NCBI RefSeq assembly: GCF_003387155.1
Contig: NZ_QUMT01000001.1
Location: 1,007,066-1,071,065, forward strand
Reading direction: 5' to 3'
Origin: Roseateles depolymerans
GTDB taxonomy: Bacteria; Pseudomonadota; Gammaproteobacteria; Burkholderiales; Burkholderiaceae_C
Length of the DNA stretch: 64,000 nucleotides
The notes under the pieces are model-generated. The model had not been told where the DNA came from. It did not search any database and saw only the letters and a program-made list of their open reading frames with translations. Of this stretch, positions 74 to 47,448 are shown piece after piece (within the stretch, counting starts at the first letter, position 1; each line of letters opens with the position of its first letter). Both the position numbers and the translations under genes were made by a program.

Positions 74-171
74 GAGAGTCTCCGTCTGGATCAGGATGGG
101 GGCGGCGACGGTGCCTGCTGCAACCGACGCTCCCGGGGGATCAATGTTGGCGGCCCTTCATTCGCGGCCCT

Positions 172-6892: not shown

Positions 6893-8034
6893 GTTCTGCC
6901 CTGCCTTCGTCGCCGACCCCCTCCCGCCAGGAGCCCGCTGCCCAGGACGCGCCGGGCGGCGGCAACCACCTGCTGTGGGGGCTGGCCGTGGCGGCCATCG
7001 GTTTTGCGCTGTGGCGCCCGGTGTCGCCGCGGGAATGGCTGGGCATGATCGACTGGCAGACCATGGGCGCCTTGACCGGCCTGCTCATCATCACGCAGGG
7101 GGTGGAGCGCAGCGGGGTGCTGCAGGGCACCGCCCGCGCGCTGCTGGCCCGCACCCACACCGCCCGCCAACTGGCGATGGTGCTGTGCGCCGTGGCGGCC
7201 GTGCTGGCGGCGCTGGTCACCAATGATGTGAGCCTGTTCCTGCTGGTGCCGCTGACCCGCGAACTGGCCGCCCAGGCGCAGTTGCCGCTGGCGCGGCTGG
7301 TGGCGCTGGAAGCGCTGGCGGTGAATGCCGGCTCGTCGCTGACCCCGATCGGCAATCCGCAAAACCTGTACCTGTGGCACCGCACCGGCGAGTCCTTCGG
7401 CGGCTTCATGGGCATGATGGCCCCGGCCGTGGGGGTGATGCTGGTGCTGCTCTTCATCACCATCCTGATCACCATGCCGGGCACGAAGATCGAGGTCGGC
7501 GCGCCCCAGGAGCCGGCGCGCACCCAGCCCCGGCTGCTGGCGCTGTCCGCCGTGCTGTTCATCGGCTTCGTCGCGTCGCTGGAACTGCATGTCTGGCTGC
7601 CGGCCCTGGGCATCGTGGTGCTGGCCTTTGCACTCTTTCAGCGGCAGGTGCTGATGCGCCTGGACTGGGCCCTGCTGGCCACCTTCGTGCTGATGTTCGT
7701 GGTGGTGCATCAGTTGGTGGCGCTGCCCTGGATCGCCCAGTGGATGGCGAAGCTGCCCACCGACGTGGCGTGGCCGACCTATGTCGTGTCCATCCTCACC
7801 TCCCAAGTCATCAGCAATGTGCCGGCCACCTTGCTGCTGGCTGGTGGCACGCCGCAGCTGTCCGCCTTGGCGGTGGGGGTGAACGTGGGCGGGTACGGCT
7901 TCGTGCTGGGCTCGATGGCCAACCTGATCGCCTTGCGCCTGGCGCGCGAGCCGCACGGACTGCGGGAATTTCACCGCATCAGCCTGCCTTTCCTGGTGGT
8001 GTGCGCTGTACTGGTGGGGCTGCTGGTGGTCTGA
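6889..8034 (+). CDS. SLC13/ArsB/NhaD-type anion or cation transporter
   Basis: A 381-residue inner-membrane protein with about 10-11 hydrophobic segments. The segment VTNDVSLFLLVPL and the later NAGSSLTPIGNPQNLYLW are the paired signature motifs of the ion transporter superfamily that includes CitM, ArsB, NhaD and SLC13 proteins. The ATG at 6889 overlaps the preceding stop; the frame is open far upstream but that stretch lies inside the MFS gene in another frame. Substrate unknown: dicarboxylate, arsenite or sodium are all within the superfamily range. Confidence 0.85.
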   Translation: MSSALPSSPTPSRQEPAAQDAPGGGNHLLWGLAVAAIGFALWRPVSPREWLGMIDWQTMGALTGLLIITQGVERSGVLQGTARALLARTHTARQLAMVLCAVAAVLAALVTNDVSLFLLVPLTRELAAQAQLPLARLVALEALAVNAGSSLTPIGNPQNLYLWHRTGESFGGFMGMMAPAVGVMLVLLFITILITMPGTKIEVGAPQEPARTQPRLLALSAVLFIGFVASLELHVWLPALGIVVLAFALFQRQVLMRLDWALLATFVLMFVVVHQLVALPWIAQWMAKLPTDVAWPTYVVSILTSQVISNVPATLLLAGGTPQLSALAVGVNVGGYGFVLGSMANLIALRLAREPHGLREFHRISLPFLVVCAVLVGLLVV

Positions 8035-43348: not shown

Positions 43349-44260
43349 TCACTCCAGGTCTTCAAAAGAGGTCAGGCACAGCTTGCCGTGGTGCTCGGCC
43401 ACCGCCGCGCGCATCAGCGGCGAGCCTTCCACCAGCACGGTGGCGTCGGCCAGATGGATGGGGATCAGGGCGCCGGGGGCCAGGTCCAGCACGCTGCCCA
43501 GGTCCATCTCCTGCTCCAGCAGGCGTGCCTGCAGCTTGAGGGTGAGACGGCGGGCCAGCGGCTGCACCGCCACGGCCGCGCGCGCCGGGCCGCGATGCTG
43601 GGCGGCCAGGCGCCTCAGCAGGGGTGTGAGATAGGCGCCATCCAGCACCACCCGCAGATGCATGTCGCGCTCGGGGCGGGCATCGGCATCGCGCACCAGC
43701 AGCGTGACTTCCCAGGCATCGGTGCAGTTGGTCGGCAGGCCGCCGATCTGCAGCGGCGGCAGGTCGTTCGACCCTGCCTCATCGTTGTCGGGCGCTGCGG
43801 TGGCGACCTGCGCCAGCGCCTGCAGCGTCAACTGGCAGCCCTGGCGGGCCAGCGCCTGCAGCAGCCGCTCTTCCGTGGCCGTCATCGGCAGGGCGCTGAG
43901 CTCGCTGGCCGGGGCGTCGGTGCTGGCACTGGCCAGGCCCAGGCGCCGCGCCATCAGCCCGTTGACCAGGGCGCGGTCGATGCGGCAGGCCACCAGGCCG
44001 GAGGGGCCCATGGCATGCAGCCAGCGGCCGGCGTCCGGGTCCAGCAGGACCTCGGCTTCACGCGCCGCGCGATCCAGCGGCTGCAGGCTCACCTCGCGCA
44101 GATCGTAGTGGGCGTGATAGCGCCGGTTCCAGGGCAGGCACAGCTGGCGATGCAGCGTCTCGCGCAGGCGGACGGCCACCCGCGGCAGCAGATGCACCGG
44201 ACGGCCAAGGCTTCGCGTATCAAGCGCAGCGGGCCGGGGAGAAAGGGCAGGGCTGGTCAT
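43349..44260 (-). CDS. fliM: divergent FliM-type switch protein
   Basis: A 303-residue protein in the position of fliM, immediately before fliN. The C-terminal 80 residues (LTLKLQARLLEQEMDLGSVLDLAPGALIPI) form the SpoA domain shared with FliN. The N-terminus lacks the EIDALL-type peptide by which FliM normally binds CheY-P, and the middle domain has ARRLG (104-108) in the place of the GGxG loop that normally touches FliG. It is therefore a rapidly diverged FliM, like those of secondary lateral flagella, and may not respond to the main chemotaxis pathway. It is first of the leftward operon. Confidence 0.82.
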   Translation of the reverse strand: MTSPALSPRPAALDTRSLGRPVHLLPRVAVRLRETLHRQLCLPWNRRYHAHYDLREVSLQPLDRAAREAEVLLDPDAGRWLHAMGPSGLVACRIDRALVNGLMARRLGLASASTDAPASELSALPMTATEERLLQALARQGCQLTLQALAQVATAAPDNDEAGSNDLPPLQIGGLPTNCTDAWEVTLLVRDADARPERDMHLRVVLDGAYLTPLLRRLAAQHRGPARAAVAVQPLARRLTLKLQARLLEQEMDLGSVLDLAPGALIPIHLADATVLVEGSPLMRAAVAEHHGKLCLTSFEDLE

Positions 44261-44308
44261 GGGGGATCCGTGGCGGACTCAATAAAGGCGTGATGCCATA
44301 ACCACTTC

Positions 44309-44314
44309 ATTCTA
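44309..44314 (-). promoter_or_regulatory. possible -10 element of the leftward flagellar operon
   Basis: On the minus strand TAGAAT matches the -10 consensus in five of six positions, with CTGCAA at an 18-base spacing as a weak -35. It is 48 bases upstream of fliM. No clear sigma28 or sigma54 promoter is seen here. Confidence 0.35.
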
Positions 44315-44615
44315 GGAATCGAATGCGGGTTTTGCAGGGGTCCAGGATATTCGTAAATCCAGTGGACGTTAAAAATTCACAATGCACTATGCAATGGACG
44401 CCTGCAATTGGGCAGGCTGCGGGTATTCCAAATTTAAGTCATCCTATTACCGGGTCGCCTTACCCCTGGCAGGGACATCGTGTTAGCGTTTTCATATTTA
44501 TCAAACATCGGCGCGATTCACGCAGATCGAGCGGAATCCATGTCAGTTTGCGTTTGTCAGATGTGAACTTCTTCACGTTGGCAAATACTGCTTTGCGGCA
44601 TTGCACAAGAAGTCC

Positions 44616-44644
44616 TTGTTGCGTACGGATGCAGCCACTACAGT
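44616..44644 (+). promoter_or_regulatory. possible promoter driving the c-di-GMP riboswitch
   Basis: TTGTTG (44616-44621), a 17-base spacer and TACAGT (44639-44644) make a moderate sigma70-type promoter. Transcription from about 44650 would begin almost at the first base of the riboswitch P1 stem, which supports the assignment. Confidence 0.4.
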
Positions 44645-44647
44645 CCG

Positions 44648-44756
44648 TCACATCAGGGCACACCCGAGCGAAAGCCGGGGTCGCAAAGCCTCCGGTCTAC
44701 CACCGGCACCCCCTTGCGGGGCGTCAGGTCACGATAGCGGGGTTGCCAGACCTGAG
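44648..44756 (+). promoter_or_regulatory. cyclic-di-GMP-I (GEMM-I) riboswitch
   Basis: The plus strand carries the conserved GEMM-I core in order: an outer P1 stem TCAGG (44653-44657) with CCTGA (44751-44755); the GGGCACACC segment; a P2 stem CCCG-A-GC capped by a GAAA tetraloop and closed by GC-CGGG; the nearly invariant CGCAAAGCCTCCGG (44682-44695); a P3 stem; and TAGCGGGGTTGCC (44735-44747). These match the Vibrio Vc2 aptamer closely, including the GAAA tetraloop and the CAAAGCC joining strand that stacks on the ligand. It senses c-di-GMP and normally switches transcription or translation downstream. The next gene on this strand is fliE, about 530 bases away. Confidence 0.9.
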
Positions 44757-44798
44757 TCTGCGGGGCACGTGACGCGTGCTTCATGGGCACATGCCTGC

Positions 44799-44818
44799 CA
44801 GGCCCCCACCGGGGCCTG
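44799..44818 (+). terminator. GC-rich hairpin, probable riboswitch expression platform
   Basis: CAGGCCCC-CACC-GGGGCCTG is a perfect 8-bp stem 43 bases after the aptamer, followed by TTGTGACCTGCTTTT. The T run is interrupted, so it is weaker than a textbook terminator, but its place makes it the likely on/off element of the riboswitch. Confidence 0.6.
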
Positions 44819-45100
44819 TTGTGACCTGCTTTTGGCGTTCGCCACGGTGAGCCCGTCTTGACACTTGATGTGACACAGGATGGTCAAGCCATGCAGCAGA
44901 CAAGAACTTCCCTGTCTTTTTCAGCGGCTCGCTGCCGCCGGTTTCCGATCGTGGATCGGGACTTCCGGCGCGTGCGGGGCCTCGCGGTGTGCCGCGCGGC
45001 GCTGCTGCTGAAGCGTTCGCCTCGCGATCCCGCGGGTTCGCTGCTGCATGTCTGCCGCCCTGTGATGCGTCCCCGCGTCGTCCCGGATTCTTCCCTTTTC

Positions 45101-45133
45101 AAATATGTCGCGATTCACTAAATAGACATATTT
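45101..45133. repeat. 9-bp inverted repeat AAATATGTC/GACATATTT
   Basis: AAATATGTC (45101-45109) and GACATATTT (45125-45133) are perfect inverted copies separated by 15 bases, in an AT-rich pocket upstream of fliE. It could be an operator for a dimeric regulator or an RNA hairpin. Confidence 0.6.
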
Positions 45134-45140
45134 GAGTCTT

Positions 45141-45163
45141 GCAGGCCTGGTGAGGAGGCCTGC
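45141..45163 (+). repeat. 8-bp hairpin GCAGGCCT/AGGCCTGC upstream of fliE
   Basis: GCAGGCCT-GGTGAGG-AGGCCTGC forms a perfect 8-bp stem with a 7-base loop, immediately after the AT-rich inverted repeat. No T run follows, so it may be a second leader structure and not a terminator. Confidence 0.55.
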
Positions 45164-45281
45164 CGCCAGGAAATACCCTTTCAGTTTGAAAACCATCCGG
45201 ATATTCCGGAGGGAAAAACTCATCCAGAAATTCGCGTTTTCTTGAATATGGAAAATGCCAACGTTCAGTCGGGAGCTTGAT

Positions 45282-45617
45282 ATGTCCGTGTCGGCGATTC
45301 AATCGTCACTGGCCCAGACGGCCATGGATTCATTATTGAACCAGGATGCCGTCCGTCTCCAGAATGACGCGCAAGCGCTCATGGGGGGTGCCTCCCATAA
45401 CCCGGATGGGATGGGCTTCGAGCAGCTGCTGCGCCGTGTCGACGACAAGGACCAGGCCGCCAGCGCGCGCATGGAGGCCGTCGAACGCGGCGAGAGCGAC
45501 GACCTGGTGGGCGCCATGCTGGCCAGCCAGGAAGCCAGCCTCTCCTTCTCCATGCTCATGCAGGTGCGCAACAAGGTGGTCGGCGCTGTGGATGAGCTGA
45601 TCAAGCTGCAGCTCTGA
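45282..45617 (+). CDS. fliE: flagellar rod-MS ring junction protein FliE
   Basis: A 111-residue protein starting MSVSAIQSSLAQTAMDSLLN. The C-terminal block ASLSFSMLMQVRNKVVGAVDEL is the FliE signature. GGGAG lies six bases before the ATG at 45282; an in-frame ATG nine codons upstream lacks this spacing. It is the first gene of the rightward flagellar block, downstream of the riboswitch. Confidence 0.95.
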   Translation: MSVSAIQSSLAQTAMDSLLNQDAVRLQNDAQALMGGASHNPDGMGFEQLLRRVDDKDQAASARMEAVERGESDDLVGAMLASQEASLSFSMLMQVRNKVVGAVDELIKLQL

Positions 45618-45633: not shown

Positions 45634-47448
45634 ATGAACGAACTGCAAACCGTGCCCACCACCGCCGCGCCAGGCTGGCGCCAGCGGCTGGACGGCCTGA
45701 TGAGCGGGCTGGGCAAGGCCGCGCCGGCCGCCGGCGCCGGGCTTCGCGGCGCGCTGCCGCTGCTGGGGCTCGCCGCCGTGGTCACCGCCCTGGTGCTGAT
45801 GCTGCTGTGGCGCGACCAGGCCGGCTACAAGCCGGTCTTCGGCCACCAGGAACGCGTGCCCACCGCCGACGTGCTGTCGGTGCTGGATGCCGAGCACATC
45901 CCCTACCGCCTTCATCCCGACAGCGGCCAGGTGCTGGTGGCCGAGTCGCAGCTGGGCAAGGCCCGCATGCTGCTGGCGGCCAAGGGCGTTGTGGCCAAGC
46001 TGCCGGCCGGTCTGGAGCTGATGGACCGCAACGATCCGCTGGGCGTGAGCCAGTTCGTGCAGGACATCCGCTTCCGGCGCGGTCTGGAAGGGGAACTCGC
46101 GCAGAGCATGATGGCGCTGGATGCGGTCGAGAGCGCCCGTGTGCACCTCTCGATTGCCCGCAGCAGCTCGTTCGTGCTGAACGACGGCCAGAAGAGCTCG
46201 GCCTCGGTGGTGGTGACCCTCAAGCCCGGGCGCTCGCTCAGCCATGAGCAGATTGCCGCGGCCATCAACCTGGTGGCGGGCTCCGTCGCGAACCTGGAGC
46301 CTTCCCGCGTCAGCCTGGTGGACCAGCAGGGTAGCTTGCTGTCCTCCCGCGTGGACCTGAGCGAAGGCTTCGACGGCACCGCTCAGGGCAATGAAGCCCA
46401 GAAGCGGGTGCAGGACGAGGTCCGCCGCAATGTGCATGAACTGCTGGCCCCGGTGCTGGGCGAGCAGAACTACCGGCTCAGCGTTACGGCCGAGGTCAAC
46501 AACGACCGGGTGCAGGAAACCCGCGAGCAATACGGCGACGCGCCCAAGGTGACCAACGAGGCCACCCGCGAGGAGCAGGACCGTGAGCGCATCGCGCTCG
46601 GCATTCCCGGCTCGCTGAGCAACCGGCCTGCGGCGGCGCTGGCGTCTGCGGCGGCATCGGCCTCGCAGGTCGGGCCGGACGACACCGCCGGCAATGGCAA
46701 CAGCAACGTGGCCCGCAAGAATGCGTCGACCCGGCAGTACGCCTACGACCGCAGCATCACCCAGGTGCGCAAGAGCCGCGGACGGCTGGAGCGGCTGAGC
46801 GTGGCGGTGCTGCTCAACACCGCGGCGGCGCCCGGCGGCGCCAAGACCTGGTCGCCCGAAGACGTGGCCAAGGTCGAGCGCCTGCTCAATGACGGCCTGG
46901 GCATGGACAAGACCCGCGGCGACAAGCTGACCGTGTCCTCCCTGGCCTTCCCCGGCGCACCGGCGGTCGAGCCCTGGTACCAGCAGCGCGACACCCTGGT
47001 GGATGTCGGCGGCTGGGCGGCCGGGGCGGTGGCGGCCCTGCTGGGTTATCTGCTGATTGCGCGTCCGCTGCTGCGCATGGGCCAGCATGCGCTGGGCATG
47101 GGCCCGGCGAAGGCACGGGCCGACCGCCGCAACGCGGACGACCGTCGCACCGATCCCGGGCAGGGCCCGGAGATCACGCCGCTGCAACCGCTGGGCAGCA
47201 GCGGCGGCAGCCCGGCCCCCGTCGGCGTGGGCGGGCCGTCCGCCGAAGCACCGGCCCTGGGGCATGCCCCCGCGACGGGTCGCAGCTCCCCGGTGATGCC
47301 GCTGCTGGAAAACTATGAACTGCCGCCCCCCGGCTCGCCGGTGGACGTGCTGGTGGACCACCTGAAGGTGCTCGCGGCCAAGGAGCCGGAGCGGGTGGCG
47401 GAAGTCGTCAAGCAATGGGTGCAGAAGAAAAATGGCCGAAGCGAGTGA
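45634..47448 (+). CDS. fliF: flagellar MS-ring protein FliF
   Basis: A 604-residue MS-ring protein. A transmembrane segment at about 45-62 is followed by ring-building motifs (YKPVFGHQERVPTADVLSVL, LDAVESARVHLSIAR and SASVVVTLKPGRSLS), a second transmembrane segment at about 452-472 and the C-terminal FliG-binding tail (PVDVLVDHLKVLAAKEPERVAEVVKQWV). It starts 17 bases after fliE and overlaps fliG by 17 bases. Confidence 0.97.
   Translation: MNELQTVPTTAAPGWRQRLDGLMSGLGKAAPAAGAGLRGALPLLGLAAVVTALVLMLLWRDQAGYKPVFGHQERVPTADVLSVLDAEHIPYRLHPDSGQVLVAESQLGKARMLLAAKGVVAKLPAGLELMDRNDPLGVSQFVQDIRFRRGLEGELAQSMMALDAVESARVHLSIARSSSFVLNDGQKSSASVVVTLKPGRSLSHEQIAAAINLVAGSVANLEPSRVSLVDQQGSLLSSRVDLSEGFDGTAQGNEAQKRVQDEVRRNVHELLAPVLGEQNYRLSVTAEVNNDRVQETREQYGDAPKVTNEATREEQDRERIALGIPGSLSNRPAAALASAAASASQVGPDDTAGNGNSNVARKNASTRQYAYDRSITQVRKSRGRLERLSVAVLLNTAAAPGGAKTWSPEDVAKVERLLNDGLGMDKTRGDKLTVSSLAFPGAPAVEPWYQQRDTLVDVGGWAAGAVAALLGYLLIARPLLRMGQHALGMGPAKARADRRNADDRRTDPGQGPEITPLQPLGSSGGSPAPVGVGGPSAEAPALGHAPATGRSSPVMPLLENYELPPPGSPVDVLVDHLKVLAAKEPERVAEVVKQWVQKKNGRSE

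Follow-up and report, generated by a model that had tools for sequence, protein, structure and literature searches.

A c-di-GMP-I riboswitch heading the lateral flagellar operon of Roseateles depolymerans, predicted to act on a leader open reading frame

The influence of c-di-GMP on flagella in Proteobacteria is usually ascribed to protein receptors. A stretch of 64,000 nucleotides from R. depolymerans (contig NZ_QUMT01000001.1; called the window here and numbered from its first letter) raises the question of whether the signal can also reach a flagellar operon directly through RNA. An original prediction, made from the letters of the window, had placed a c-di-GMP-I riboswitch before a lateral-type flagellar operon and proposed that the ligand switches the operon off through a downstream hairpin. 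We asked whether the riboswitch is genuine, whether it belongs to the flagellar genes, and at which step and in which direction it might act.

A search with the Rfam covariance model RF01051, the check suggested along with the prediction, returned a plus-strand match at 44647-44750 that covered the full model (1-87). Its score of 58 bits is well above the gathering score of 35 (E=9.6e-9; search space: whole window, both strands). It was the only Rfam family to reach its gathering threshold in the window, and a permissive Rfam scan of 44550-45300 added one chance-level thermometer match on the opposite strand (17.6 bits, cut-off 126). All predicted landmarks were found in their places: the outer stem P1, formed by TCAGG (44653-44657) and CCTGA (44751-44755), the GAAA-capped stem P2, CGCAAAGCCTCCGG and TAGCGGGGTTGCC. 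We also built our own covariance model, R1, from 25 aptamers (of 26 first aligned, L020 was dropped; L004 was turned round). With R1 the window aptamer, itself among the training rows, scored 83 bits. Across the 25 aptamers, 13 of the 21 base pairs showed compensatory (both-side) changes, and 94.1% of cells were paired.

The window keeps the consensus segments AGGGC and GGUUGCC, as judged by sequence match only. We take the ligand-contact residues G20, A47 and C92 (Vc2 numbering) to map onto these segments; on this mapping the residues are kept and there is no G20A, which is a feature of cGAMP-sensing variants. Model match and covariation confirm the element as a genuine c-di-GMP-I riboswitch, which is predicted to bind c-di-GMP. 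A variant core, GGCACA...GUCGC, is common to 32 of the 34 lateral leaders compared below, the remaining two reading AAA and UCA, both with U. Among 29 other aptamers, some of which the script's pattern misread, the script found U in four, and inspection by eye added L067; these five are all from other genera; the sequence subtype is not exclusive to lateral leaders. An aptamer of the same subtype precedes a methyl-accepting chemotaxis protein in genome G022 (L065, 6367-6462).

The ligand is very likely made in this genome (G000, 5.66 Mb), because it contains 49 GGDEF matches, a few of which are pieces of one gene. It holds four RF01051 matches in total. The three outside the flagellar locus precede a large ORF without Pfam match, an adhesin and a ShlB/FhaC-type secretion gene. 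The adhesin is of the filamentous-haemagglutinin type (ESPR and TPS domains) and lies 476 nt beyond its aptamer (L034, 6137-6212); the ShlB/FhaC-type gene belongs to two-partner secretion and follows a minus-strand aptamer (L035, 6084-6173).

As predicted, the next plus-strand gene after the window aptamer is fliE (45282..45617; TIGR00205, 64 bits, cut-off 30), and it opens a flagellar run that includes fliA and motA/motB. According to NCBIfam, the genes are fliE, fliF, fliG, fliI, a weak fliJ, fliD, fliS, a FliK/YscP-like gene, fliA, motA, motB/lafU, flgJ and flgE. Several of these matches fall below the curated cut-off, e.g. those to FliG and LafU; for the stator protein, the best match was the LafU model NF005273 with 192.7 bits, below the cut-off of 383. 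From the Shine-Dalgarno sequence GGGAG and from relatives, we infer that fliE starts at ATG 45282. Divergent to this operon lie flhA, flhB, fliR and fliP, together with a gene whose product carries a FliM/FliN C-terminal domain. The lateral-type FliF (45634..47448, plus strand; TIGR00206) is 77-97% identical in eight other genomes of the genus, and a second FliF elsewhere in the genome is 36% identical to it. The operon is lateral, i.e. part of a second, divergent flagellar set besides the primary one.

Does the aptamer belong to this operon? Among 16 genomes of the genus Roseateles, nine carry a lateral FliF (identity 77-100%, a range that includes the window's own), and all nine have the aptamer before fliE on the fliE strand. 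The remaining seven are without lateral FliF; RF01051 matches were fetched from them as well, but not one had a neighbour that matched a lateral protein of the window. Since presence of the aptamer at the site and of FliF agrees in 16/16 genomes, the association is not chance. The comparison of relatives proposed with the original prediction thereby bore out the conservation of the aptamer (9/9 genomes with lateral FliF) and also that of the downstream hairpin, the stem of which (hairpin B below) covaries in 18 leaders.

R1 was then applied to 67 named lateral-FliG loci and found the aptamer in 30, on the fliE strand every time; all matches scored 71-90 bits, with nothing weaker down to E 1. 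Thirteen genus names are represented (Roseateles, Mitsuaria, Pelomonas, Rubrivivax, Methylibium, Paucibacter, Aquincola, Aquabacterium, Ramlibacter, Paracidovorax, Azoarcus, Zoogloea and Dactylopiibacterium), some of them metagenome-bin labels and some overlapping with Roseateles in the GTDB sense. The aptamer is dispensable, since no aptamer was detected in 37 of the 67 loci, two of which (L109, L123) are on contigs too short to reach fliE. Loci without it come from Janthinobacterium, Variovorax, Pseudorhodoferax, Methyloversatilis and Comamonas and include five Steroidobacter/Peristeroidobacter loci; Aquabacterium is split (L107 with, L086 without), and tblastn found no fliE in four Hydrogenophaga loci. 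In a FliG tree with long branches, parts of which are unsafe, the aptamer-bearing loci are scattered across the betaproteobacterial part. RF01051 matches anywhere in the genome occurred in 43/50 and 6/17 genomes of the 67 loci; the adjacency count rests on the R1 scan of the loci and not on these genome-wide numbers. A c-di-GMP-I switch before a betaproteobacterial lateral operon is thus upheld, but not as a use special to this genome, as many other betaproteobacterial lateral loci keep the aptamer.

For leader comparisons we used the 30 named loci, the window, L052, L061 and L064, giving 34 leaders that are related and not independent of each other. A fliE match lay on the aptamer's strand in all 34, 160-724 nt downstream of the aptamer. 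One of these loci, L105 (Rhodocyclaceae MAG CTSoil_117), contains a pair of very similar divergent aptamers at 7063-7150 (minus strand) and 7503-7590 (plus strand), one per lateral flagellar operon; in addition to the aptamer that faces fliE, there is one that points the opposite way, before divergent fliM-fliP-fliR-flhB-flhA.

The aptamer probably forms the 5' end of its transcript, because in 27/34 leaders only 2-4 nt separate the end of the best promoter-like pair from the start of the aptamer model (0-6 nt in 29/34). The mean score of this pair was 9.9, versus 8.1 in shuffles. In the window it corresponds to a putative sigma-70-like promoter, TTGTTG-17-TACAGT (44616..44644, plus strand), in a block that is 94% identical to both L073 and L052; a stricter consensus promoter scan does not list it. 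The predicted transcript start is at about 44650, at the 5' edge of the aptamer. Upstream of the promoter, the palindromic site TGTGAACTTCTTCACG (44562..44577) keeps GTGA-N6-TCAC in 8/8 aligned Roseateles-type loci; we take it to be of the CRP/FNR type, a candidate by its sequence. In the same eight loci, the conserved blocks ATTCTAGGAATCGA, AATAAATCAC-like, TTTCATATTTATCAA and GTGAACTTCTTCACG occur within 44250-44600, perhaps as operators or as a divergent fliM promoter.

Downstream of the aptamer, three plus-strand hairpins recur in 18 Roseateles-type leaders (Methylibium, Paucibacter and genome G022 included). In hairpin A (GCACGTGACGCGTGC, 44765..44779), 3/7 pairs showed both-side changes, and in hairpin B (CAGGCCCC-CACC-GGGGCCTG, 44799..44818) 5/7 counted pairs did so, each with 97.6% of cells paired in the 18 leaders; hairpin C (TGGCGTTCGCCA, 44833..44844) had 1/4 such pairs and 85.5% of cells paired. 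For the platform helices as a whole, 95.7% of cells were paired and 9/21 pairs had both-side changes. The covariation score was reached by none of 500 shuffles and the number of such pairs by three of 500, and the signal was destroyed, with far lower values, in slid-partner controls. A covariance model of the platform, R2, gave no convincing match in 84 loci outside the training set: its best matches, in L127 (E 0.028) and L068 (E 0.066), were at unrelated places, and L094 (E 0.24) alone was hit at the right place. Local fold z-scores in 30 leaders were modest, with means of -1.85 for the platform, -0.93 for the ribosome-site window and -0.56 for the 120 nt after the start.

Hairpin B is the perfect 8-bp GC hairpin of the original prediction, located 43 bases past CCTGA as described. 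It could serve transcription attenuation, in which c-di-GMP would favour the hairpin at 44799-44818 and stop transcription before fliE, as at flgB of Clostridioides difficile; the class I switches of that species are transcriptional OFF switches according to the accessible text of PMC11477304. The hairpin is real and GC-rich, its pairing is conserved, and some terminator-like site lies between aptamer and fliE in 14/34 leaders. However, hairpin B is directly followed by the element UUGUGACC (44819..44826, plus strand) instead of a U-run in 16/18 aligned leaders, a terminator scan of the plus strand from 44250 to 45400 found none, and the 14 leaders are at background level, as Markov controls gave a mean of 11.7; the window and its near relatives L084, L073 and L052 have no such site. 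Moreover, conservation extends past the hairpin to a Shine-Dalgarno-ATG pair. We therefore rejected hairpin B as an intrinsic terminator: the predicted stem is conserved, but its role as a c-di-GMP-favoured terminator is not supported, and attenuation of this kind appears decidedly improbable.

Some pairings would link the platform with the aptamer. RNAalifold proposed UUGUGACCUG with CAGGGCACA of the aptamer, whereby the UUGUGACC side could meet the 5' strand at 44654-44662. Its UGUG/CACA part is possible in 17/18 leaders and its CCUG/CAGG half is whole in 10/18, without covariation. Such a pairing, which we regard as a lead only, would make platform and aptamer exclusive and would belong to the unbound state. 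Two other partners of UUGUGACC, the 5' flank GTCACA, which may fall outside the transcript, and the aptamer 3' strand GGTCACGA, can pair with it in the window; both pairings were rejected as broken in several relatives when inspected by eye. A 9-nt complement in the window, GTCACATCA/TGATGTGAC, is complete only in the nearest relatives, likewise by eye.

What lies at the platform's end suggests another step. From +60 to +360 after the aptamer, we ranked ATGs by their anti-Shine-Dalgarno pairing; the best one lay at +115..170 in 20/34 leaders, where 19% were expected. The binomial p of 3e-7 is optimistic: the choice of band followed inspection of the data, and the leaders are related to each other. 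The best site was outside the band in 14/34 leaders, the close relative L073 included. When second-best sites, one GTG and some assignments by eye were admitted, a start could be placed at +120..165 in 30/34 leaders, the exceptions being L095, L096, L100 and L111. In the window, the site opens a leader ORF of 76 codons (MQQTRTSLSF...; 44891..45121, plus strand) without Pfam match, with its Shine-Dalgarno-ATG pair at the near-constant distance and its first ~12 codons common to the window and its nearest relatives. Where assigned, leader ORFs have 5-124 codons (L118 apart), e.g. MVIHAQLFIP in L074 and MNCHILV in L094; given this range and the lack of a peptide conserved outside close groups, some may be chance. 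The leader ORF of L105 (61 codons) runs into fliE and stops ~11 nt beyond the A of the fliE ATG; this overlap suggests translational coupling. The position of the Shine-Dalgarno-ATG pair at the end of the platform suggests that translation initiation is the switched step.

In the window, the Shine-Dalgarno sequence of the leader ORF is held in a putative ribosome-site hairpin, CCGTCTTG / CAGGATGG (44853..44883, plus strand), which has 8 bp in the window and in three near relatives and is modestly supported. Compared with shuffled upstream sequence, stems holding the Shine-Dalgarno sequence (CCGUCUUG/CAGGAUGG in the window) reached p<0.05 in 6/30 leaders and p<0.2 in 16/30; the stem is absent in L090 and L092, and in several of the 30 leaders it is absent or no better than in shuffled sequence.

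Sequence identity indicates how far the conserved RNA extends. Between the window and L073, 50-nt bins from 44547 to 44896 are 86-100% identical, except for 78% in the bin of the variable aptamer arm; identity then falls to 68% and to 42-50% through 44947-45096. Because of this fall after 44896, the conserved RNA appears to begin at the promoter and to end shortly after the start of the leader ORF. The spacer at 44947-45096 is poorly conserved (36-50% identity) and is followed by a second conserved island at 45097-45296. Beyond the spacer every bin is at least 80% identical to L073 (80-86% within the island), and the bins before fliE show 62-74% identity to L052. This island contains an 11-bp inverted repeat, TCAAATATGTC-N15-GACATATTTGA (45099..45135, plus strand), which could be an RNA hairpin or an operator; different stems in a similar place in L074 and L075 hint at a hairpin. 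In the 34 leaders, a GGGATTGTTTTGTCCTGAAT-like block recurs between leader ORF and fliE, sometimes after a hairpin and at variable distance from fliE.

An island with an inverted repeat behind a poorly conserved spacer could also mean that fliE has its own promoter in the second block (45097-45280), in which case the riboswitch would control only a short leader RNA or ORF, with little flagellar effect. A consensus scan shows no plus-strand promoter in that block, which is a weak point against this idea because the same scan misses the promoter proposed at 44616-44644. The idea is also opposed by the aptamer's presence at the site in all nine lateral-gene genomes of the genus and its orientation towards fliE in 30/30 positive named loci. 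In L118 (Steroidobacteraceae), moreover, the ATG after the platform is the start of fliE itself. We consider a separate fliE promoter of this kind unlikely.

As a guide to the direction of control, energy folding was largely uninformative, with a weak lean to OFF. When the aptamer was forced, openness of the ribosome site dropped by >0.1 in 6/30 leaders, a number that includes the near-identical pairs L083/L135 and L090/L092, and climbed in 1/30; the window itself was almost unchanged (0.47 to 0.43). The leader that climbed, L074 (0.29 to 0.60), would suit an ON switch, in which c-di-GMP frees the leader ribosome site and lateral flagella rise with c-di-GMP on surfaces. Lateral flagella are generally known as surface organelles, and other aptamers of this genome precede an adhesin and a ShlB/FhaC-type gene, where ON control would be expected. 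Yet six of the 30 leaders lean the opposite way against one, and c-di-GMP usually represses flagella. We judge an ON switch to be rather unlikely, and control is probably in the OFF direction.

On balance, we favour, as moderately probable, a reading in which the c-di-GMP-I riboswitch heads the fliE-operon mRNA and acts on translation initiation of the leader ORF, which would be coupled to fliE, most likely as an OFF switch. The aptamer would make up the first ~100 nt of the lateral fliE operon mRNA, and binding of c-di-GMP would change access to the leader ribosome site, with translation initiation and not an intrinsic terminator as the switched step. Translation of the leader would then decide whether transcription or translation continues into fliE, some hundreds of bases on, either by translational coupling, where the two overlap as in L105, or elsewhere through Rho-dependent termination that is exposed or shielded. 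High c-di-GMP would most likely lower lateral flagellar expression, as suggested by physiology and by the weak lean in folding. More tentatively, control of the whole lateral operon may be indirect: translation of the leader ORF, which has 5-16 codons in several genera, would set polarity (Rho) or coupling, relieving or imposing it across a leader of several hundred bases; in the unbound state, UUGUGACCUG may in addition invade the 5' strand of the aptamer. If riboswitch control of the operon through the leader ORF is true, c-di-GMP would act on surface motility directly through RNA under 13 genus names, and biofilm signals may reach swimming or swarming genes by this route.

The element resembles the RF01051 (GEMM-I) family in sequence, secondary structure, GAAA-capped stem and conserved core, and differs from it in the GGCACA...GUCGC subtype and in the downstream platform with a leader ORF. 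To our knowledge, a leader ORF between aptamer and operon would be unusual as the expression platform of a c-di-GMP-I riboswitch. Our literature search, with most subscription papers outside its reach, found no title that deals with riboswitches of lateral flagella or with any in Roseateles. A paper on the lateral flagella of Burkholderia dolosa lists a LafA homologue in R. depolymerans (PMC5773237). The Laf system described there is similar to the present one in being a second set of flagellar genes that includes a FliA of its own and a stator protein of LafU-like type, in the window a putative one by its match below the cut-off; control by sigma-54 and sigma-28 is described, and the accessible text mentions no riboswitch (PMC5773237). 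A word-start search of that text for 'di-GMP', which may miss 'c-di-GMP', gave no match. The flgB operon of C. difficile is under a class I c-di-GMP riboswitch that acts as a transcriptional OFF switch, as far as the accessible text of PMC11477304 describes it. Both switches have a class I aptamer heading a large flagellar operon with a flagellar sigma factor gene. In contrast to flgB, the switch described here precedes a second (lateral) system, no intrinsic terminator was found in it, and a Shine-Dalgarno-ATG pair follows its platform. C. difficile already provides an example of a flagellar operon under class I control; in the literature accessible to us, the use of such control for lateral flagella, with a leader ORF, appears to be new.
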